From assembly GCA_947176375.1 (NCBI GenBank), contig CAMWQM010000016.1:1-43906 (forward strand): a stretch of 43,906 bases of DNA, read 5' to 3'. Shown here one piece after another: positions 2,965-43,742 of the stretch. Within the stretch, counting starts at the first letter, position 1. Each line of letters begins with the position of its first letter. Source of the DNA: an uncultured Helicobacteraceae bacterium. Lineage in GTDB: Bacteria; Campylobacterota; Campylobacteria; Campylobacterales; Helicobacteraceae. Under the pieces are notes generated by a model. The model was given only the letters and a program-made list of their open reading frames with translations. It did not search any database and was not told the origin of the DNA. A program made the translations under genes and the position numbers.

Positions 2965-3718
2965 ATATTTTTTTAAATTTATTATCAAGTATGCTAAATA
3001 CACTATTATCGTGATAAAATGAGCCTAAAGCCACATAAATAAAACTTTCACTCTCTACAATTTTGCCTATATGAAAATGCCCCTCTATAATCATAGAAAT
3101 TTCAAGATTTAAAGAATTAATATATAATTTGTAAGATTCTAGTCGTTTTTTTATTATATGATTTGCATTTTGTGGATATTTTATTTGTTTATTTTCTACT
3201 TTTTTACTAATAAAATTATAGAGTCTGCCTTTTGTTAAACAATCAAAAAAGTTTAAGATTCTAGCACTTTTACTAGAAGTTAAAATCTTTATATACATTT
3301 CATATTTTTTATTTAAAAATATATCACCATGCGCTAAAAGCACTTTTTTATCTTTAAATTGTGCAATTAGTGGCTGATTTTTGCGACTAATTTTTAAAAC
3401 TTTTGGCAAGACATTTGCTAGATTAAAATCGTGATTTCCCTCAAAATAAATAATTTCAATCTTATTTGATAAAGAATCTAATAAAGAAAGCATAATATTA
3501 TTAGATTCCACACTAGAAGTTAAATTACCAACTAAAATATTTGAAATATCGCCTAGTAAAAATATCTGTGATGGAAACTCATTTTTTTTTAGCATTTTTT
3601 TAAAAATATCAATCAAGTCGCCTTTGCCATTTTTAATATGCGAATCTGCTAAAAAAATGGCATCTTCTTTTATTATTAAAATATTATTAAAATTCGCCAT
3701 CTTTAAATCACGGCACAT
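2960..3718 (-). CDS. Metallophosphoesterase, probable UDP-2,3-diacylglucosamine diphosphatase (LpxH-like)
   Basis: This is a calcineurin-like phosphoesterase of 252 residues. The five metal-site blocks are visible in order: LADSH (residues 23-27), LLGD (near 54-57), EGNHDF (near 95), AHGD and EGHFHIG near the C-terminus. Together these bind a two-metal centre. Length, the GNHD/HGD/GHxH pattern and the absence of a signal peptide fit the LpxH family, which cleaves UDP-2,3-diacylglucosamine to lipid X on the cytoplasmic side during lipid A synthesis. A general cytoplasmic phosphoesterase remains possible. The ATG at 3718 overlaps the argC end by 11 bases. A second ATG at 3700 (MANFNNIL) would remove the overlap and may be the real start. 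Neither start has a clear ribosome binding site, which suggests translational coupling to argC. Confidence 0.75.
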   Translation of the reverse strand: MCRDLKMANFNNILIIKEDAIFLADSHIKNGKGDLIDIFKKMLKKNEFPSQIFLLGDISNILVGNLTSSVESNNIMLSLLDSLSNKIEIIYFEGNHDFNLANVLPKVLKISRKNQPLIAQFKDKKVLLAHGDIFLNKKYEMYIKILTSSKSARILNFFDCLTKGRLYNFISKKVENKQIKYPQNANHIIKKRLESYKLYINSLNLEISMIIEGHFHIGKIVESESFIYVALGSFYHDNSVFSILDNKFKKIF

Positions 3719-6815: not shown

Positions 6816-8168
6816 TTAGCTTCTGCTCATTCCTAAATCATTGTAGAATCTATCTATATCAAAATTTTTATTTAAATATTTTACAATTTCTAATGTATCA
6901 ATTTCTGCATTTTGCAGACAGCTTGTAGCGCCAGGAGATGGTGTCATATTAAATGTAATACCTTTATTTGTAGTAATCTTTTTTTCACCAAGTTCAAGCT
7001 TTCTTAAAGTCATATCAATAACTTGTGGGCGAACCTCTCCATATCCCCTTGCATAAGTCAAATCATCTAGACTTAATGATGGGATAATTTTCCTTGCATC
7101 TTGCAAAAACAATCTTTTTCCAATAAAAGGTAATTCAAATAGAATATTTCTAAAAGCATAGCTCCTTATCTCACTATCTTTTAACAAGTCAAATCCAACT
7201 TTTAGCGTCCCTAATTTAAAATCTATAATCAATAGCTCACTGCTTAGGTTTCCAAACAAATGCTCTGAACGTTCCAGCTTTGGCATTACAATCGCAGTAG
7301 GTCCAAACCTAGTAGCACCATTTAAGCTAATATCTGGATCTCCATGTAGTGCTGCAAATGGAAGTTTTGGATTTTGCACTCCATAAACCTTACCTCGTAA
7401 AAACTCTCCATTGACAAAATAAAAACTCCCAGCCACAGGCAGACAACCTAAATCTTTGCCATACCCACATTTTTGTGCCAATGGAAGCGAATACGAACCA
7501 GCATTTACAAGGATAAACTTTGCATTTATTATTCTCTTGTTTTTGGAGATTATTTTATAACTACCATCTTCATTTTGTTTGATACTCATTACTTTAAAAT
7601 TTGTTTTTACTTGATTATTTGGATTCGCTTTCATTGCCTCTTGTGCAAAATTTTCACTTAAAGCTTCAAAACTCATTCCACACCAAGATTCCTCATATCC
7701 AGATGCTACTACATTTTCACTCCTATCTCCTCCATCTAGGGATTCTATAATTTTTGGCTCAATTCTTTTGACTTCTTCTTTATTGAAAAATGTAATACCC
7801 TCAAAAATATTACTAAATTCATTATGTCTTTTTGTCATAAACTCACATTCTTTATCACCAACCCCAATGGCAATTTTTTGCATTTTAAAAATTACTTTGT
7901 TTTGTAAACCCTTGTTTAGCGCATAGTTTTTAACTTTATCGGCTGCTACTTTTACTTTTCTAGCTTTTTGTGCTGTATAGTTTGTCTCGATAGAACCATC
8001 GTGAATTGTCTGTGAGTTTGCTGTAGAATGTGAGCTAATAGAAGCTAATTTATCACATTTTTCAAGCAAAACCACTTTATTAATATCAGTATATTGACTT
8101 AATACATAAAATGCAGCTGAGCCAGAAATTCCACCGCCAATTATAGCTACATCAAAGTTATTGTCCAT
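6816..8168 (-). CDS. mqo: Malate:quinone oxidoreductase
   Basis: Mqo is an FAD-dependent, membrane-associated enzyme that oxidises malate to oxaloacetate and passes electrons to the (mena)quinone pool, replacing NAD-malate dehydrogenase in the citric acid cycle. The 450-residue protein opens with an FAD Rossmann motif ([13 protein letters not shown], about 8-20). It carries blocks I recognise from the H. pylori enzyme: [16 protein letters not shown] near residue 50, [38 protein letters not shown] and the C-terminal [15 protein letters not shown]. Length equals that of H. pylori Mqo as I recall it. AAGGGG precedes the ATG. The gene begins 9 bases after znuC, so it is probably co-transcribed with the metal transporter genes, an uncommon pairing. 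Confidence 0.95.
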
Positions 8169-38769: not shown

Positions 38770-39474
38770 ATGAAATTTAGCTTTTTAACATTGTTCCCAA
38801 ATCTAATCTCTTCATATTTTACAGATTCTATTCTAAAGAGAGCGCTAGATTCCAAAATAATTGATATTGAGATTATAGATTTTAGGGATTTTAGCACAAG
38901 AGCTCATAAAAAAGTGGATGATTTTCAAGCAAGTGGCGGGGCTGGATTAGTAATATGCGCTGAAGTATTAGAAAACACACTAAATTACATTAGCACAAAA
39001 GATTCACATATCATTTACTTAACGCCTGTGGCAAAGCGATTTAATCAATTTGATGCAAAGAGATTAGCTAGTAATTATAAACATATTATTTTTATTTGTG
39101 GGCGTTATGCGGGCATTGATGAGCGAGTAATTGAATGCTTTGTAGATGAAGTTTTTAGTATAGGTGATTATATTCTAACAGGTGGTGAATTAGCTTCTTT
39201 AGTGCTATGTGATTGTATTTCTAGGCAAATTCCAAATGTGCTAGGAAATAGCAAATCACTAGAGGGTGAGAGTTTTGAATCTAATTTGCTTGAGGCTCCT
39301 GTTTTTACAAAAATCATCGATAATTCAAAAAAAGTATCAAATTTAAGTATTCCTTCAGAGTATTTAAAGGGAAATCATAGTAGAATCAGAGTTTTTAAAA
39401 ATCATTTATCATTAAAAAAGACGAAATATTTTCGTCCAGATATATTAAAACAAAGGCAGACAAATGCAAAATAG
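38770..39474 (+). CDS. trmD: tRNA (guanine-N1)-methyltransferase TrmD
   Basis: TrmD methylates G37 of tRNAs, preventing frameshifting. The 234-residue SPOUT enzyme has [15 protein letters not shown] at the start, GGAGLVI, the knot segment [14 protein letters not shown] and [15 protein letters not shown]. Its end overlaps the rplS start by 11 bases, a common arrangement. Confidence 0.97.
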
Positions 39475-39820
39475 ATATATAGAGTTGTTTGAAAAATCTC
39501 AAATTAAAAATAAGCAAGTCCCTAACTTCAAAGCAGGTGATACAATTAAAATTGGTATTACGATTAAAGAAGGGGATAAAACTAGGATTCAATATTTTGA
39601 AGGTATATGTATAGCGATTCGAGGGCATGGTGTAAATAGAACCTTTAGAGTTAGAAAGATTGGAGCAAATAATATAGGTGTTGAGAAAAATTTCCCTATT
39701 TATAGCGATAGTTTAGCAAGCATTGAAGTCTTAAGAATTGGTAGAGTTAGAAGGGCAAAACTATATTATTTAAGAGATAGAAAAGGAAAAGCTGCAAGAA
39801 TTAAAGAATTAAGAAAATAA
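39464..39820 (+). CDS. rplS: 50S ribosomal protein L19
   Basis: L19 sits at the 30S-50S interface. The 118 residues contain [27 protein letters not shown] and the [37 protein letters not shown] region typical of the family (quoted in parts: [14 protein letters not shown] and [18 protein letters not shown]). It is the last gene of the conserved translation cluster. Confidence 0.98.
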
Positions 39821-39826
39821 AAACTT

Positions 39827-41104
39827 GTGATTTTCTCATTTTTAAAAAATAGAAAAGTTAAAAATAATATATATGGTTTTATTTTCTTTTCTATTTTAAT
39901 AATAATGTTAAATTTATATGTTTATTTAGATTTAAATAAACATATAAAAAGTAGATTTTACTATCCAAAAATTGATTTCATAGCTAATTCAAAAACTAAT
40001 ACACAAAATACAAACTTTCAATTTACTAATTTACAAAACTATGAAGTAATAATTCCAAATATAGAAAAAAGTGCCCACTCAAGCTCAATAGTTGATATTG
40101 GTGATAAGCTTATGGTGGTATATTTTGCAGGAAGTAAAGAGGGAGCAAGAGATGTAAAAATCTATCAAGCCTTCATAAATAAAAATAAAGTTAGTGATAA
40201 AAATAGTGTAGATATTAATGATGCTGATAATACTAATGGGGTTGCAGAAATATTAGGAGAGCCAAAAAGCATTTTAGATTCTAAAATGCTTTCACTATTG
40301 AGCGGTAAATTTATTAAGAATCTAGGCAATCCCGTTGTATTTAGAGATTTAAATAATAAAATCCATTTCTTTGTAGTTGGTGTTAGTCTTGGGGGCTGGG
40401 CTACAAGCAAGATTTATCAGCTAGAATTTAATGAAAATTTAAATTCTCTAATTTATAAGGGTGAGTTGCAATTAGGCGCTATGGCAAATTTTTCTCATCT
40501 TATTAGAACACTTCCTGTGCTACTGCAAAATGGTGGTTTTATACTACCATACTATCACGAATTAGCAAGAAAATACAGCCTTGTGGCGTTTTTTGATAGC
40601 AATGCAAAATATATCTATTCTAAAAAAATCAATAATTTAAACAACCTCCTTCAACCTAGCGTAGCCCTGCTAGATCCTAAAAATTGTTTAGTATTTTTTA
40701 GAAATTACAAAGAAGGCAAAGCTTTAATTCAAGAATGCTCTAATAGTGGGGACTTTTGGAAAAAACCATCCACAAGCAATCTTTTTAATTATGGTAGCTC
40801 TAGTGTGCTAATAAGCTTTATGAATGAGGATAGAAATAATATTCTGCTTATACACAATGATGGAAAAACTGCTACAAATGATAATGCACGCTCATCTATC
40901 AGTCTATACTATCTAAAAAATAAAGAAACTAATGAATTTATACATTTAATCAACCTTGACAAAGACAAAGAAGAAGTTAGCTATCCATCAGCTATAATTG
41001 ATGAATCTTATTTACATATAACCTATACAAACGATAGGAAAAATATCAAATACAAGGCTATCAGCCTAGAATCTATCAATAAACTAATAAAAGAATTGCA
41101 ATGA
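39827..41104 (+). CDS. Membrane-anchored sialidase-like (BNR/beta-propeller) protein
   Basis: The 425-residue protein has one N-terminal membrane helix (about 14-34), with the rest predicted periplasmic. The body looks like a sialidase-fold beta-propeller: HSSSIVDIGDKLMVVYFAGSKEGARDVKIY near 72-102, NPVVFRDLNNKIHFFVV, ILPYYHELARKYSLVAFFD, LQPSVALLDPKNCLVFFRNY and SYPSAIIDESYLHITYTNDRKNIKY (each a propeller-like blade; longer pieces here given by their position in order). Classical Asp boxes (SxDxGxTW) are weak, so sialidase activity is not assured. The start is GTG, six bases after the rplS stop; no strong ribosome binding site is seen. The next gene overlaps its stop. Confidence 0.7.
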   Translation: MIFSFLKNRKVKNNIYGFIFFSILIIMLNLYVYLDLNKHIKSRFYYPKIDFIANSKTNTQNTNFQFTNLQNYEVIIPNIEKSAHSSSIVDIGDKLMVVYFAGSKEGARDVKIYQAFINKNKVSDKNSVDINDADNTNGVAEILGEPKSILDSKMLSLLSGKFIKNLGNPVVFRDLNNKIHFFVVGVSLGGWATSKIYQLEFNENLNSLIYKGELQLGAMANFSHLIRTLPVLLQNGGFILPYYHELARKYSLVAFFDSNAKYIYSKKINNLNNLLQPSVALLDPKNCLVFFRNYKEGKALIQECSNSGDFWKKPSTSNLFNYGSSSVLISFMNEDRNNILLIHNDGKTATNDNARSSISLYYLKNKETNEFIHLINLDKDKEEVSYPSAIIDESYLHITYTNDRKNIKYKAISLESINKLIKELQ

Positions 41105-41730
41105 TGGGAATATATTGTTTAATATTGGCTAGTTTGCTTTATTTAAGCGGATTTATCATAAATAAAAAAATAAAATATACCTTTGTATTGCTTTTCTTTA
41201 CACTCTCATTCATATCACTGCAAACTTTTGGCATAGAGTTAGCAAATAAATCCCATTCACTAGCGCTAGATTTAATAAGCAAATATTCGTTATCCTTGAT
41301 TTTATATTCATTTTTTAGTGCTCCTAGCTATTTATGCACTTTATTAAGCTTATATGTGATATTTAAGATTCTAGTTAGAGATTTTACTCCAAACAAATAC
41401 GCAAATATTTTAAAATATAAGATAAATCCGCTTTGCTTCATAGTATTTGTAATCTTTGGCTTAATTTTATTTTTGGGGAATCTTAATTTATTCATATTTG
41501 ATATTTATCACGCTAATGCCATTAATATAGCTATTTTTGTTTTTATTTTTATAGCAAGTTTGTATTTTATAGATAGATTCTGTGCTATATTAGCCTTAAT
41601 TGCGTTATTTTTTAGCTTAGATTCAAATATTTTAGTCGGACTTATGTGCATATATTTGTGGCTTTTTAGCGTATTTTATATATTTATTAAAGGATTTATA
41701 TTTATCAAGGGCAAAATATGCAAAGAATAA
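41101..41730 (+). CDS. Polytopic membrane protein of unknown function
   Basis: I do not recognise this gene. The 209 residues contain six or seven membrane helices (about 2-20, 26-44, 62-92, 102-128, 137-156, 160-175 and 180-200) with short loops and a basic tail (FIKGKICKE). It overlaps the upstream sialidase-like gene by four bases and the downstream sulfatase-like gene by 13 bases. The three genes are therefore likely made together. A role as a transport or scaffold partner for the two periplasmic enzymes is only a guess. Confidence 0.75.
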   Translation: MMGIYCLILASLLYLSGFIINKKIKYTFVLLFFTLSFISLQTFGIELANKSHSLALDLISKYSLSLILYSFFSAPSYLCTLLSLYVIFKILVRDFTPNKYANILKYKINPLCFIVFVIFGLILFLGNLNLFIFDIYHANAINIAIFVFIFIASLYFIDRFCAILALIALFFSLDSNILVGLMCIYLWLFSVFYIFIKGFIFIKGKICKE

Positions 41731-43742
41731 ATTTTAGCAAGATTATATTTCAATCATTCGCATTTATGATATTTTTGTATATTTTGCATTGTTTATTGCG
41801 TTTGATTTTTATCATTATGGTTGGTATTTATCAAGGTGCTATTGATAAAGTGGAAATATCACAATTAGCACAAATGTTTCATAATGCCTTTTTGTATGAT
41901 GGGCAGATTATTGGCGTTATGACAAGCATATTTTTTGGCATTTCGCTATTATTACTACGAAGCGGAATAGTAGAAAAATTAGCCAAAATACTACTTAAGA
42001 TTTATATTATCTTGATTATTTTTATTACAGCATTTGTAGGCTTTGCTAATATAGGATTTTATGAAATTTATAAAGAAACTTTCAATGCCACTTTGCTTGG
42101 ACTTATTTTTGATGATAGAGTAGCGATTTTTCAAACTGCTTTGAAAGATGATTTCGGAATCTTAAATAAAATTATTCTCTGGCTAATCTTTAGCTTTGCT
42201 ATGCTTTTTATATTCAAATTTTTAAATAAAAAAATACTAGATTCAAAAATAAATAGCAATGTTACTAGTGGAATTATTTTATTTATCATATTTGGTTTTG
42301 CTCAATTATTTGCAATTAATGGAAATATCGGGCTAAGGGGAATCTCACTTGGTAAAGAAATCATTCCAGTTTCAAATCCATTTTTAAGACAAATTACAAT
42401 GGGTGGCTTTAGAGACCTAGGATATGTTTATAAAAGCTATGTTTTAATTTCTAATTCAAAATTTAGCAATTACATTGATGAAAGTCCACTTACAGCCACA
42501 AGATTTTTTTTTAAACTTGAAAATAATAAAGATTCTACGCTAAATTTAGAATCCTTGCTTACAAAAGAGGTTAATAATCCACATAATAAACAAATAGAGC
42601 ATATTTTTTATATCATTGCTGAGAGTTTTAGCAGCTGGCATTTTGATAAAGACTTTGAATCTCTTGGGCTTACAAATGAGCTACAAAAACTGCTAAATAG
42701 CAGTAATGCACTTAAAATAGATATTTTACAAAATGCAGCTAACACGATTAAGAGCCTTGATGTGCAGATAAGCGGACTTTATCAATTTGAGATTCCACTT
42801 AACTTAAGTGTAGGGCATAATCCTATTTTTAAAACTTCAGCTGGTTATATTTTTAAAGATTTAGGCTATGAAAATAGATTCTATTATGGTGGCTCTGGGA
42901 CTTGGCAAAAAATAGATTCCTATACCAAATCACAGGGCTTTGATAAGATTTTTTATAATACTCATATCATTCAAAATGCAAAAGATAAAGGATATAAAGC
43001 ACCTTATGAAAACTCTTGGGGAGCCTACGACAATCACTTATATAATTTTATAAAAGATAATACTCTAATAAACTCCAAAACAAAAAGTTTTTCTATGATT
43101 TTAAGCACATCTTATCATCCACCATATGATGTGCCTTTAGAACAGTTTGATATAGAACTAGATAAAATTAATAATTTTGTAGAAAATAATGAAAAAATCA
43201 TCAATAAAGATAGGGCAAAGAAGATTCTATCTCATATAATCTATCAAGATAAAATGATATCCAAGTTCATAAAAGAAATGGCAAATGAGATTCCAAATAG
43301 TCTTTTTGTAATCACAGGCGATCATTATGATAGGGAATATCCATTTAGCAAAAGTGATTTAAATATCACAAATAAAATTCCATTTATAATCTATGCTCCA
43401 AATTTAGAGCCAAAATTAGTCTCAAATATTGGCTCACACATTGATATAGTTCCAAGCATTGTGGAATTAGTCGCTCCAAATGGATATAAATATATGAGCT
43501 TTGGAATGCCATTATTTAGCAAAACTAGTAACAAAAAGAATAAAAATGCTCTAGGATATTTTGCTGTATCAAATGAAAATTTCATTTATAATGGCAAAAT
43601 GATAGAATATTTTGATAAAAATTCAACATCTAATGATTATGAAAAATTAGCAAAAGATTTATTTAAAGATTTAAATAGAGCTAAAGCTTTAAGCTGGTGG
43701 ATTTTTAACAATGGATATGAAATAACAGAATCTACTGATTAA
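41718..43742 (+). CDS. LTA-synthase-like membrane sulfatase/phosphotransferase family protein
   Basis: The 674-residue protein has five N-terminal membrane helices (about 10-38, 63-82, 91-117, 150-169 and 183-200) and a large periplasmic domain of the alkaline phosphatase/sulfatase superfamily, the layout of LtaS. Likely metal and catalytic residues are Glu302 (YIIAESFS), nucleophile Thr343 (AANTIKSLDVQISGLY, 41 residues later as in LtaS), a His in STSYHPPY, and Asp-His in TGDHYDRE. Such enzymes transfer phosphoglycerol or phosphoethanolamine from lipids to glycans. Gram-negative bacteria lack LTA, so the acceptor here may be a periplasmic glucan or LPS. AAGG precedes the ATG. Confidence 0.85.
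   Translation: MQRINFSKIIFQSFAFMIFLYILHCLLRLIFIIMVGIYQGAIDKVEISQLAQMFHNAFLYDGQIIGVMTSIFFGISLLLLRSGIVEKLAKILLKIYIILIIFITAFVGFANIGFYEIYKETFNATLLGLIFDDRVAIFQTALKDDFGILNKIILWLIFSFAMLFIFKFLNKKILDSKINSNVTSGIILFIIFGFAQLFAINGNIGLRGISLGKEIIPVSNPFLRQITMGGFRDLGYVYKSYVLISNSKFSNYIDESPLTATRFFFKLENNKDSTLNLESLLTKEVNNPHNKQIEHIFYIIAESFSSWHFDKDFESLGLTNELQKLLNSSNALKIDILQNAANTIKSLDVQISGLYQFEIPLNLSVGHNPIFKTSAGYIFKDLGYENRFYYGGSGTWQKIDSYTKSQGFDKIFYNTHIIQNAKDKGYKAPYENSWGAYDNHLYNFIKDNTLINSKTKSFSMILSTSYHPPYDVPLEQFDIELDKINNFVENNEKIINKDRAKKILSHIIYQDKMISKFIKEMANEIPNSLFVITGDHYDREYPFSKSDLNITNKIPFIIYAPNLEPKLVSNIGSHIDIVPSIVELVAPNGYKYMSFGMPLFSKTSNKKNKNALGYFAVSNENFIYNGKMIEYFDKNSTSNDYEKLAKDLFKDLNRAKALSWWIFNNGYEITESTD

Follow-up and report, generated by a model that had tools for sequence, protein, structure and literature searches.

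A putative Kdo hydrolase gene pair and an LtaS/OpgB-like companion behind rplS in an uncultured Helicobacteraceae bacterium

A 43,906-nucleotide stretch from an uncultured Helicobacteraceae bacterium (GenBank assembly GCA_947176375.1, contig CAMWQM010000016.1, positions 1 to 43,906; this whole stretch is referred to as the window) ends with a trio of overlapping open reading frames, ORF1, ORF2 and ORF3, behind the gene rplS. Judged from sequence, ORF1 and ORF2 very probably encode a two-protein hydrolase of the Helicobacter type that acts on 3-deoxy-D-manno-oct-2-ulosonic acid (Kdo). The predicted product of ORF3 is an LtaS/OpgB-like membrane protein of the alkaline-phosphatase superfamily and of the HP0578 type. 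A preliminary description of the window had taken the trio for a system unfamiliar from Helicobacter pylori; this was wrong and is rejected here, since the trio matches HP0580-HP0579-HP0578 by synteny in H. cetorum and by the literature on these genes. Two of the three genes thus very probably belong to a system that is already known, with ORF3 as a widely conserved companion, and what is new is the ORF2 fold without a solved match, a clade in which the ORF3 site is degenerate, and relatives of the same genus that have no trio. The genes concerned are the following.

39464-39820, + strand: rplS, end of the translation operon, with the trio attached behind it
39827-41104, + strand: ORF1, GTG start, 425 amino acids
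41101-41730, + strand: ORF2, 209 amino acids
41718-43742, + strand: ORF3, 674 amino acids

The genes overlap by 4 bases between ORF1 and ORF2 (41101-41104) and by 13 bases between ORF2 and ORF3 (41718-41730), and the rplS stop ends at 39820, so that 6 bases precede the GTG of ORF1. The translation operon upstream reads ffh-rpsP-KH-rimM-trmD-rplS, with gene names taken from reading the translations. The coordinates thus confirm the three overlapping genes behind a translation operon that had been described earlier, and the three protein types proposed at that time, a sialidase-like propeller, a polytopic membrane protein and an enzyme similar to synthases of lipoteichoic acid (LTA), are borne out as well.

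Gene order and its counterpart in Helicobacter pylori

Named genomes searched with a single peptide pattern yielded 51 ORF1 loci, 48 of them labelled Helicobacter and three Campylobacter. In 44 of the 51 loci, the ORF directly behind ORF1 contains four or more hydrophobic segments, as counted by a simple hydropathy scan, and in 27 of the 51 this ORF overlaps ORF1 by the same 4 bases, which argues against a chance arrangement. Of the seven loci that depart from this, L077 is a frameshifted copy, L085 breaks off about 660 bases behind ORF1, L114 has a short ORF with three segments, and the rest are L094, L098, L121 and L125. The frameshifted copy belongs to Candidatus (Ca.) H. avicola, a metagenome assembly, in which the frame of ORF2 (L077:7137-8060) changes near a T9 run at 7561; either an assembly error or a switch may lie behind this.

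The gene order in H. cetorum is nth-fliN-hypothetical-tonB1-pyrC-ORF1-ORF2-ORF3-selU-folD-lepB, where fliN, tonB and folD are above their Pfam cut-offs, pyrC is a weak amidohydrolase match below the cut-off, and the remaining names come from translations. In the cited passages, the H. pylori operon HP0584-HP0578 has tonB1 as its third gene and HP0578 as its last (PMC13367063), HP0581 is pyrC (PMC10269868), and the entry for HP0578 reads 'LTA synthase family protein' (PMC9927306). Because the order in H. cetorum equals that of the published operon, the trio can be assigned to the HP0580-HP0579-HP0578 type. HP0579 and HP0580 are described there as KdoH1 and KdoH2, which jointly remove the terminal Kdo (PMC12342981, PMC5371381, PMC3245313), and they are tabulated as Kdo hydrolase (PMC9570263, PMC5368276); the part removed by this two-protein hydrolase is given as the outer Kdo of Kdo2-lipid A. 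The window shares with H. pylori the adjacent pair of a sialidase-like protein followed by a membrane protein in identical order, and its pair is homologous to the H. cetorum pair in the HP0580/HP0579 position. ORF3 takes the position of HP0578 behind the Kdo hydrolase pair. In contrast, the window pair adjoins rplS, whereas the H. pylori-type pair adjoins pyrC. The Francisella KdoH1/KdoH2 (KdhAB) is likewise described as a two-component inner-membrane Kdo hydrolase.

The sialidase-type propeller and its membrane partner

ORF1 matches the Pfam family BNR_2 with an E value of 3.7e-48. Its AlphaFold model (32 rows; predicted local distance difference test, pLDDT, 88.2) is rich in strands and has an N-terminal helix at residues 9-38, which is likely a membrane anchor. 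Among PDB structures, Foldseek returned GH33 sialidases (best E 2.5e-12) and hydrolases of 2-keto-3-deoxynononic acid (KDN), the KDNases; by its model, ORF1 is thus predicted to be the GH33-fold, sialidase-like subunit of a two-component Kdo hydrolase. Sequence profiles of ORF1 found no PDB chain at 0.01 and one chance match at 0.15. A listing of GH33 includes sialidase, KDNase and Kdo hydrolase (PMC9120202). Kdo, KDN and sialic acid are all 2-keto acid sugars, so that one fold can serve each of them.

For the counts of site residues, identical proteins were collapsed, which reduced 89 ORF1 rows to 72 and 48 ORF3 rows to 37; four of the 37 (L083, L143, L146 and L147) do not adjoin ORF1. Within the 72 distinct ORF1 rows, E245 and R292 are conserved in 72, R355 and R227 in 71, Y386 in 70 and R404 in 68. 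The active site of GH33 sialidases consists of a Glu, a Tyr nucleophile and three Arg, and the Glu-Arg-Arg-Tyr order in ORF1 may resemble it, as judged from the alignment counts. Degeneration of this site in orthologues had been named beforehand as evidence against the proposed trio, and the conserved residues proved mostly intact. His84 is kept in 87 of the 89 rows and gapped in the other two; judged by eye, it stands at the place of the first Arg motif of sialidases.

The model of ORF2 (pLDDT 90.9) contains seven helices of 12 or more residues. A Pfam search of ORF2 gave no match, its sequence found no PDB chain at E <= 1, and a Pfam search with 30 ORF2 members hit four families with one member each at E 0.0087-0.059, which is taken as chance. 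Foldseek with the model found no PDB structure at E <= 0.001, the best match having an E value of 5.1. The predicted fold may therefore not yet be among solved structures and could represent a new membrane fold. A profile comparison with hhalign connected the window-type group of ORF2 (13 rows) with the gastric-type group (14 rows) at a probability of 98.3 and an E value of 1.1e-14 over 153 columns. The gastric-type group includes the H. cetorum sequence, whose synteny provides the link to HP0579 in place of a labelled H. pylori sequence. On these sequence grounds, ORF2 is assigned as the adjacent polytopic membrane subunit homologous to HP0579. Some ORF2 relatives of 326-458 amino acids have long hydrophilic inserts between the membrane helices (L043:4613-5959, L083, L086 and L087).

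The LtaS/OpgB-like protein

ORF3 matches the Pfam family Sulfatase with an E value of 4.6e-26. Its matches to two NCBIfam equivalogs are partial, with 35 bits against a cut-off of 574 for OpgB (NF003000) and 29.2 bits against 970 for LTA synthase (NF053595). ORF3 is accordingly classified from sequence as a relative of LtaS and not as LtaS itself. The ORF3 profile matched four PDB sequences, the uncharacterised VP1736, LtaP, LtaS and a second LTA synthase. The site of LtaS-type enzymes consists of a Thr nucleophile, a Glu, Asp-His metal ligands and a Trp/Arg glycerol-phosphate site. Aligned with LtaS by HMMER, the ORF3 profile has the Thr, the Trp, the 'NH' His and the 'GDH' motif at the corresponding positions, and ORF3 shares the superfamily of LtaS, LtaP and OpgB with Thr, Asp-His and Trp at aligned places; it differs from LtaS in having Lys in place of the Arg. 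The window protein contains E302, T343, W396, K398, H467, D535 and H536. Gram-negative cells have no LTA, and the preliminary description had pointed out that the LtaS-type spacing of the catalytic residues is kept nevertheless; the alignment puts these residues in place, but with K398 instead of Arg. ORF3 can thus be predicted to have an LtaS-type phosphotransferase site.

Across the 37 distinct ORF3 proteins, Trp396, His536 and His574 are present in 37, Glu302, Thr343, His467 and Asp535 in 33 each, and Lys398 in 31; the Thr is accordingly absent in four. H. marmotae lacks only the Thr in the site alignment. The sole genome of the family with ORF3 and without ORF1 (G062, locus L143) keeps the Thr, and its Glu302, Lys398, His467 and Asp535 are changed. 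Towards gastric-type members, ORF3 is 36-39% identical. A search of the accessible literature under the locus names of HP0578 found no study of its function. In the cited passage, jhp0525, equated here with HP0578 from its place before jhp0526/HP0579, appears as a putative protein with a statistical link to levofloxacin resistance (p 0.031, 18 strains; PMC5157799). The genome of the window has further genes of this kind: three sulfatase/LtaS-like genes on contigs C6, C24 and C15 (L003, L004/L006 and L005) appear split or stop-containing, and contig C8 carries an intact OpgB-like gene (L002:1063-2634).

Co-occurrence and distribution

In the 121 genomes of the family, ORF1 was found in 89 (E <= 1e-5) and ORF3 in 66 (E <= 1e-20); 65 genomes have both, one has ORF3 alone, 24 have ORF1 alone and 31 have neither. 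One best ORF1 place was counted per genome (8 second pieces of split matches were omitted), and for ORF3 the second pieces in G091 and G004 were left out. ORF1 and ORF3 are linked in 45 of the 121 genomes, on one strand and one contig and in six genera, with 557-1291 bases between the matched parts, which leaves room for ORF2. The trees of ORF1 and ORF3 from 33 distinct linked trios have distances that correlate at 0.82, a value unreached in 999 permutations; this may reflect co-inheritance, but shared species history would also give it. The expectation of the preliminary description that the trio should recur in other genomes held, although just 45 of the 89 ORF1 genomes have the two genes linked and ORF3 is missing or elsewhere in about half. 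Among 398 genomes sampled evenly across the order, 31 contain ORF1, all within the family of the window, and 36 contain ORF3 (E <= 1e-40), with 8 weaker matches among these in other families. This sample misses some ORF1 copies, since the scan of named genomes finds ORF1 in three Campylobacter-labelled records. A pattern from H. cetorum ORF1 matched two stretches in viral contigs, neither of which encodes a relative.

Proposed function and alternatives

In the proposed mechanism, ORF2 would hold or present Kdo2-lipid A in the inner membrane, and ORF1, anchored by its one helix, would remove the outer Kdo with its periplasmic propeller. Characterised Kdo hydrolases are said to act at the periplasmic side of the inner membrane (PMC12856342). 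ORF3 may then transfer the head group of a phospholipid, phosphoglycerol or phosphoethanolamine, to the inner core of the same lipopolysaccharide (LPS). We infer the Kdo-removal activity in this organism and the part of ORF2 from sequence, and the donor and acceptor of ORF3 from its family and neighbourhood. The genome has one gene of the Kdo-transferase family (PF04413) and two of the PAP2 phosphatase family. It had been supposed that the trio trims or decorates a periplasmic or surface glycan; trimming of LPS is likely, and decoration is perhaps possible. That ORF3 is an LPS-modifying transferase is accordingly a tentative proposal from the combined analysis, to which we give slightly less than an even chance. 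A more specific version is possible and rather doubtful: ORF3 would be a dedicated third component of the Helicobacter Kdo hydrolase system that modifies or chaperones the mono-Kdo inner core once it has been trimmed, in one clade it would have become a conserved pseudoenzyme with no more than a partner or regulatory role in LPS remodelling, and the fold of ORF2 would be one unseen in solved structures.

Several points weigh against assigning the trio in this way. The link to H. pylori runs via H. cetorum synteny and gastric-type genomes and not via a labelled H. pylori sequence, and the one-pattern scan of named genomes returned no record labelled H. pylori. ORF1 is just 36-37% identical to its gastric relatives, and ORF2 is linked to them by profile comparison. 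A single-sequence search recovers ORF2 from just 24 of the 121 family genomes, and the short length and divergence of the protein are the probable reason. ORF3, at the threshold used for the family, is absent from 24 of the 89 ORF1 genomes and unlinked in 20 more, and so it is presumably not needed for Kdo removal; the gene counted as ORF3 in the 20 genomes that hold the two apart may be a paralogue. No ORF1 was found in the 8 genomes of other families with weaker ORF3 relatives, and the Fisher test for co-occurrence of ORF1 and ORF3 (p 9e-13) takes the genomes as independent of kinship. Finally, Thr343, His467 and Asp535 of ORF3 are replaced or missing together in H. equorum, Helicobacter sp. 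TUL and Ca. H. avicola.

It is very unlikely that ORF1 is a true sialidase or trims pseudaminic acid, legionaminic acid or KDN on a surface glycan that ORF2 and ORF3 build or modify. The best fold matches are indeed GH33 sialidases and KDNases, and the fold alone does not name the sugar, but the HP0579-type membrane partner and the HP0580 synteny point to Kdo, and the sequence profiles found no PDB sialidase. Rather unlikely is also that ORF3 is an OpgB-like enzyme for periplasmic glucans or other targets, which is only incidentally co-transcribed with the adjacent Kdo hydrolase. OpgB-type families gave the best partial NCBIfam matches of ORF3, and the 20 genomes with separate genes would fit such an independent role; however, the matches are far below the family cut-offs, the protein on contig C8 of the same genome is a better OpgB match (E 6.6e-43, also below the cut-off), and the linkage of ORF1 and ORF3 holds in six genera.

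A further alternative, that ORF3 is a structural or regulatory third partner of the Kdo hydrolase in which catalysis is dispensable, we consider unlikely, and it gains weight from the clade with the degenerate ORF3 site. The genes in question, each beside an intact Kdo hydrolase propeller, are the following.

L082:7932-9908: degenerate-site ORF3
L080:7981-9957: degenerate-site ORF3
L077:8042-10033: degenerate-site ORF3

Each of the three genomes stands twice in the site alignment, as two loci. In the ORF3 tree they form one clade on a long stem that is not present in the ORF1 tree. Among them, the ratio of nonsynonymous to synonymous substitution rates (dN/dS) is 0.18-0.20 for ORF3 and 0.14-0.16 for ORF1. 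Synonymous sites are saturated in two of the three pairs (dS about 1.3-1.5); the H. equorum-TUL pair alone is unsaturated (dS 0.27). Because of the long stem and a dN/dS of about 0.2, ORF3 of this clade seems to have changed fast around the loss of the site and to have been retained since, and it is apparently a conserved pseudoenzyme beside an intact propeller. Retention without the site, together with the near confinement of ORF3 to ORF1 genomes in the family (65 of 66), would suit a partner protein. On the other hand, three pairs with mostly intact sites scatter at 0.15, 0.08 and 0.28 for ORF3 (0.15, 0.28 and 0.19 for ORF1), a range that, with the saturation, weakens the argument from dN/dS, and 24 of the 89 ORF1 genomes have no ORF3. 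Since Thr343 is retained in 33 of the 37 distinct ORF3 proteins and Asp535 likewise in 33, catalysis usually seems to matter. A degenerate sulfatase site, the other sign that had been named as speaking against the trio, is found in the three genomes of this one clade, and most orthologues keep the nucleophile.

For the Kdo hydrolase assignment of ORF1 and ORF2, the H. pylori case indicates what may depend on the enzyme, as the hydrolase step is tied there to lipid A remodelling and polymyxin resistance; in the passage cited, Kdo hydrolase mutants of two strains became 37-fold and 1147-fold more sensitive to polymyxin (PMC5371381). As a co-inherited partner, ORF3 is a candidate for making a phosphorylated decoration of Helicobacter LPS that is as yet uncharacterised, and natural contrasts are available in the pseudoenzyme clade and in the relatives that have no trio.

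Surroundings and origin of the trio

Counts of promoter-like sites around the trio (43 against 49.5 expected) and of terminator-like sites (5 against 2.6 expected, all on the - strand) are uninformative. Phase variation through the T9 tract at 42504 in ORF3 was considered but lacks support: the window has three A9/T9 tracts (at 3582, 13645 and 42504), fewer than the mean of 21.2 in shuffles. The contig stops 164 bases past ORF3, so that the far junction of the trio is not visible.

At the thresholds of the family search, no gene of the trio had a match in the four other genomes of the same genus, one of them 56% complete. All four have the same ffh-rpsP-KH-rimM-trmD-rplS operon, and where the window carries the trio (39821-43742), their loci (L156-L159) have a convergent gene behind rplS and no trio within the fetched stretch. 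From reading its translation, we take this convergent gene to be of the CorC/TlyC type. The rplS neighbourhood was found in none of the 21 other ORF1 loci with flanks of about 6 kb (20 genomes; L041 equals L108). The window protein clusters with those of the Campylobacter-labelled L081 and L093 in the ORF3 tree. In the ORF1 tree, L081 and L093 split off immediately outside the window protein and a clade made up of L050-L052 and L128-L130. Horizontal transfer and repeated loss could each account for this distribution.

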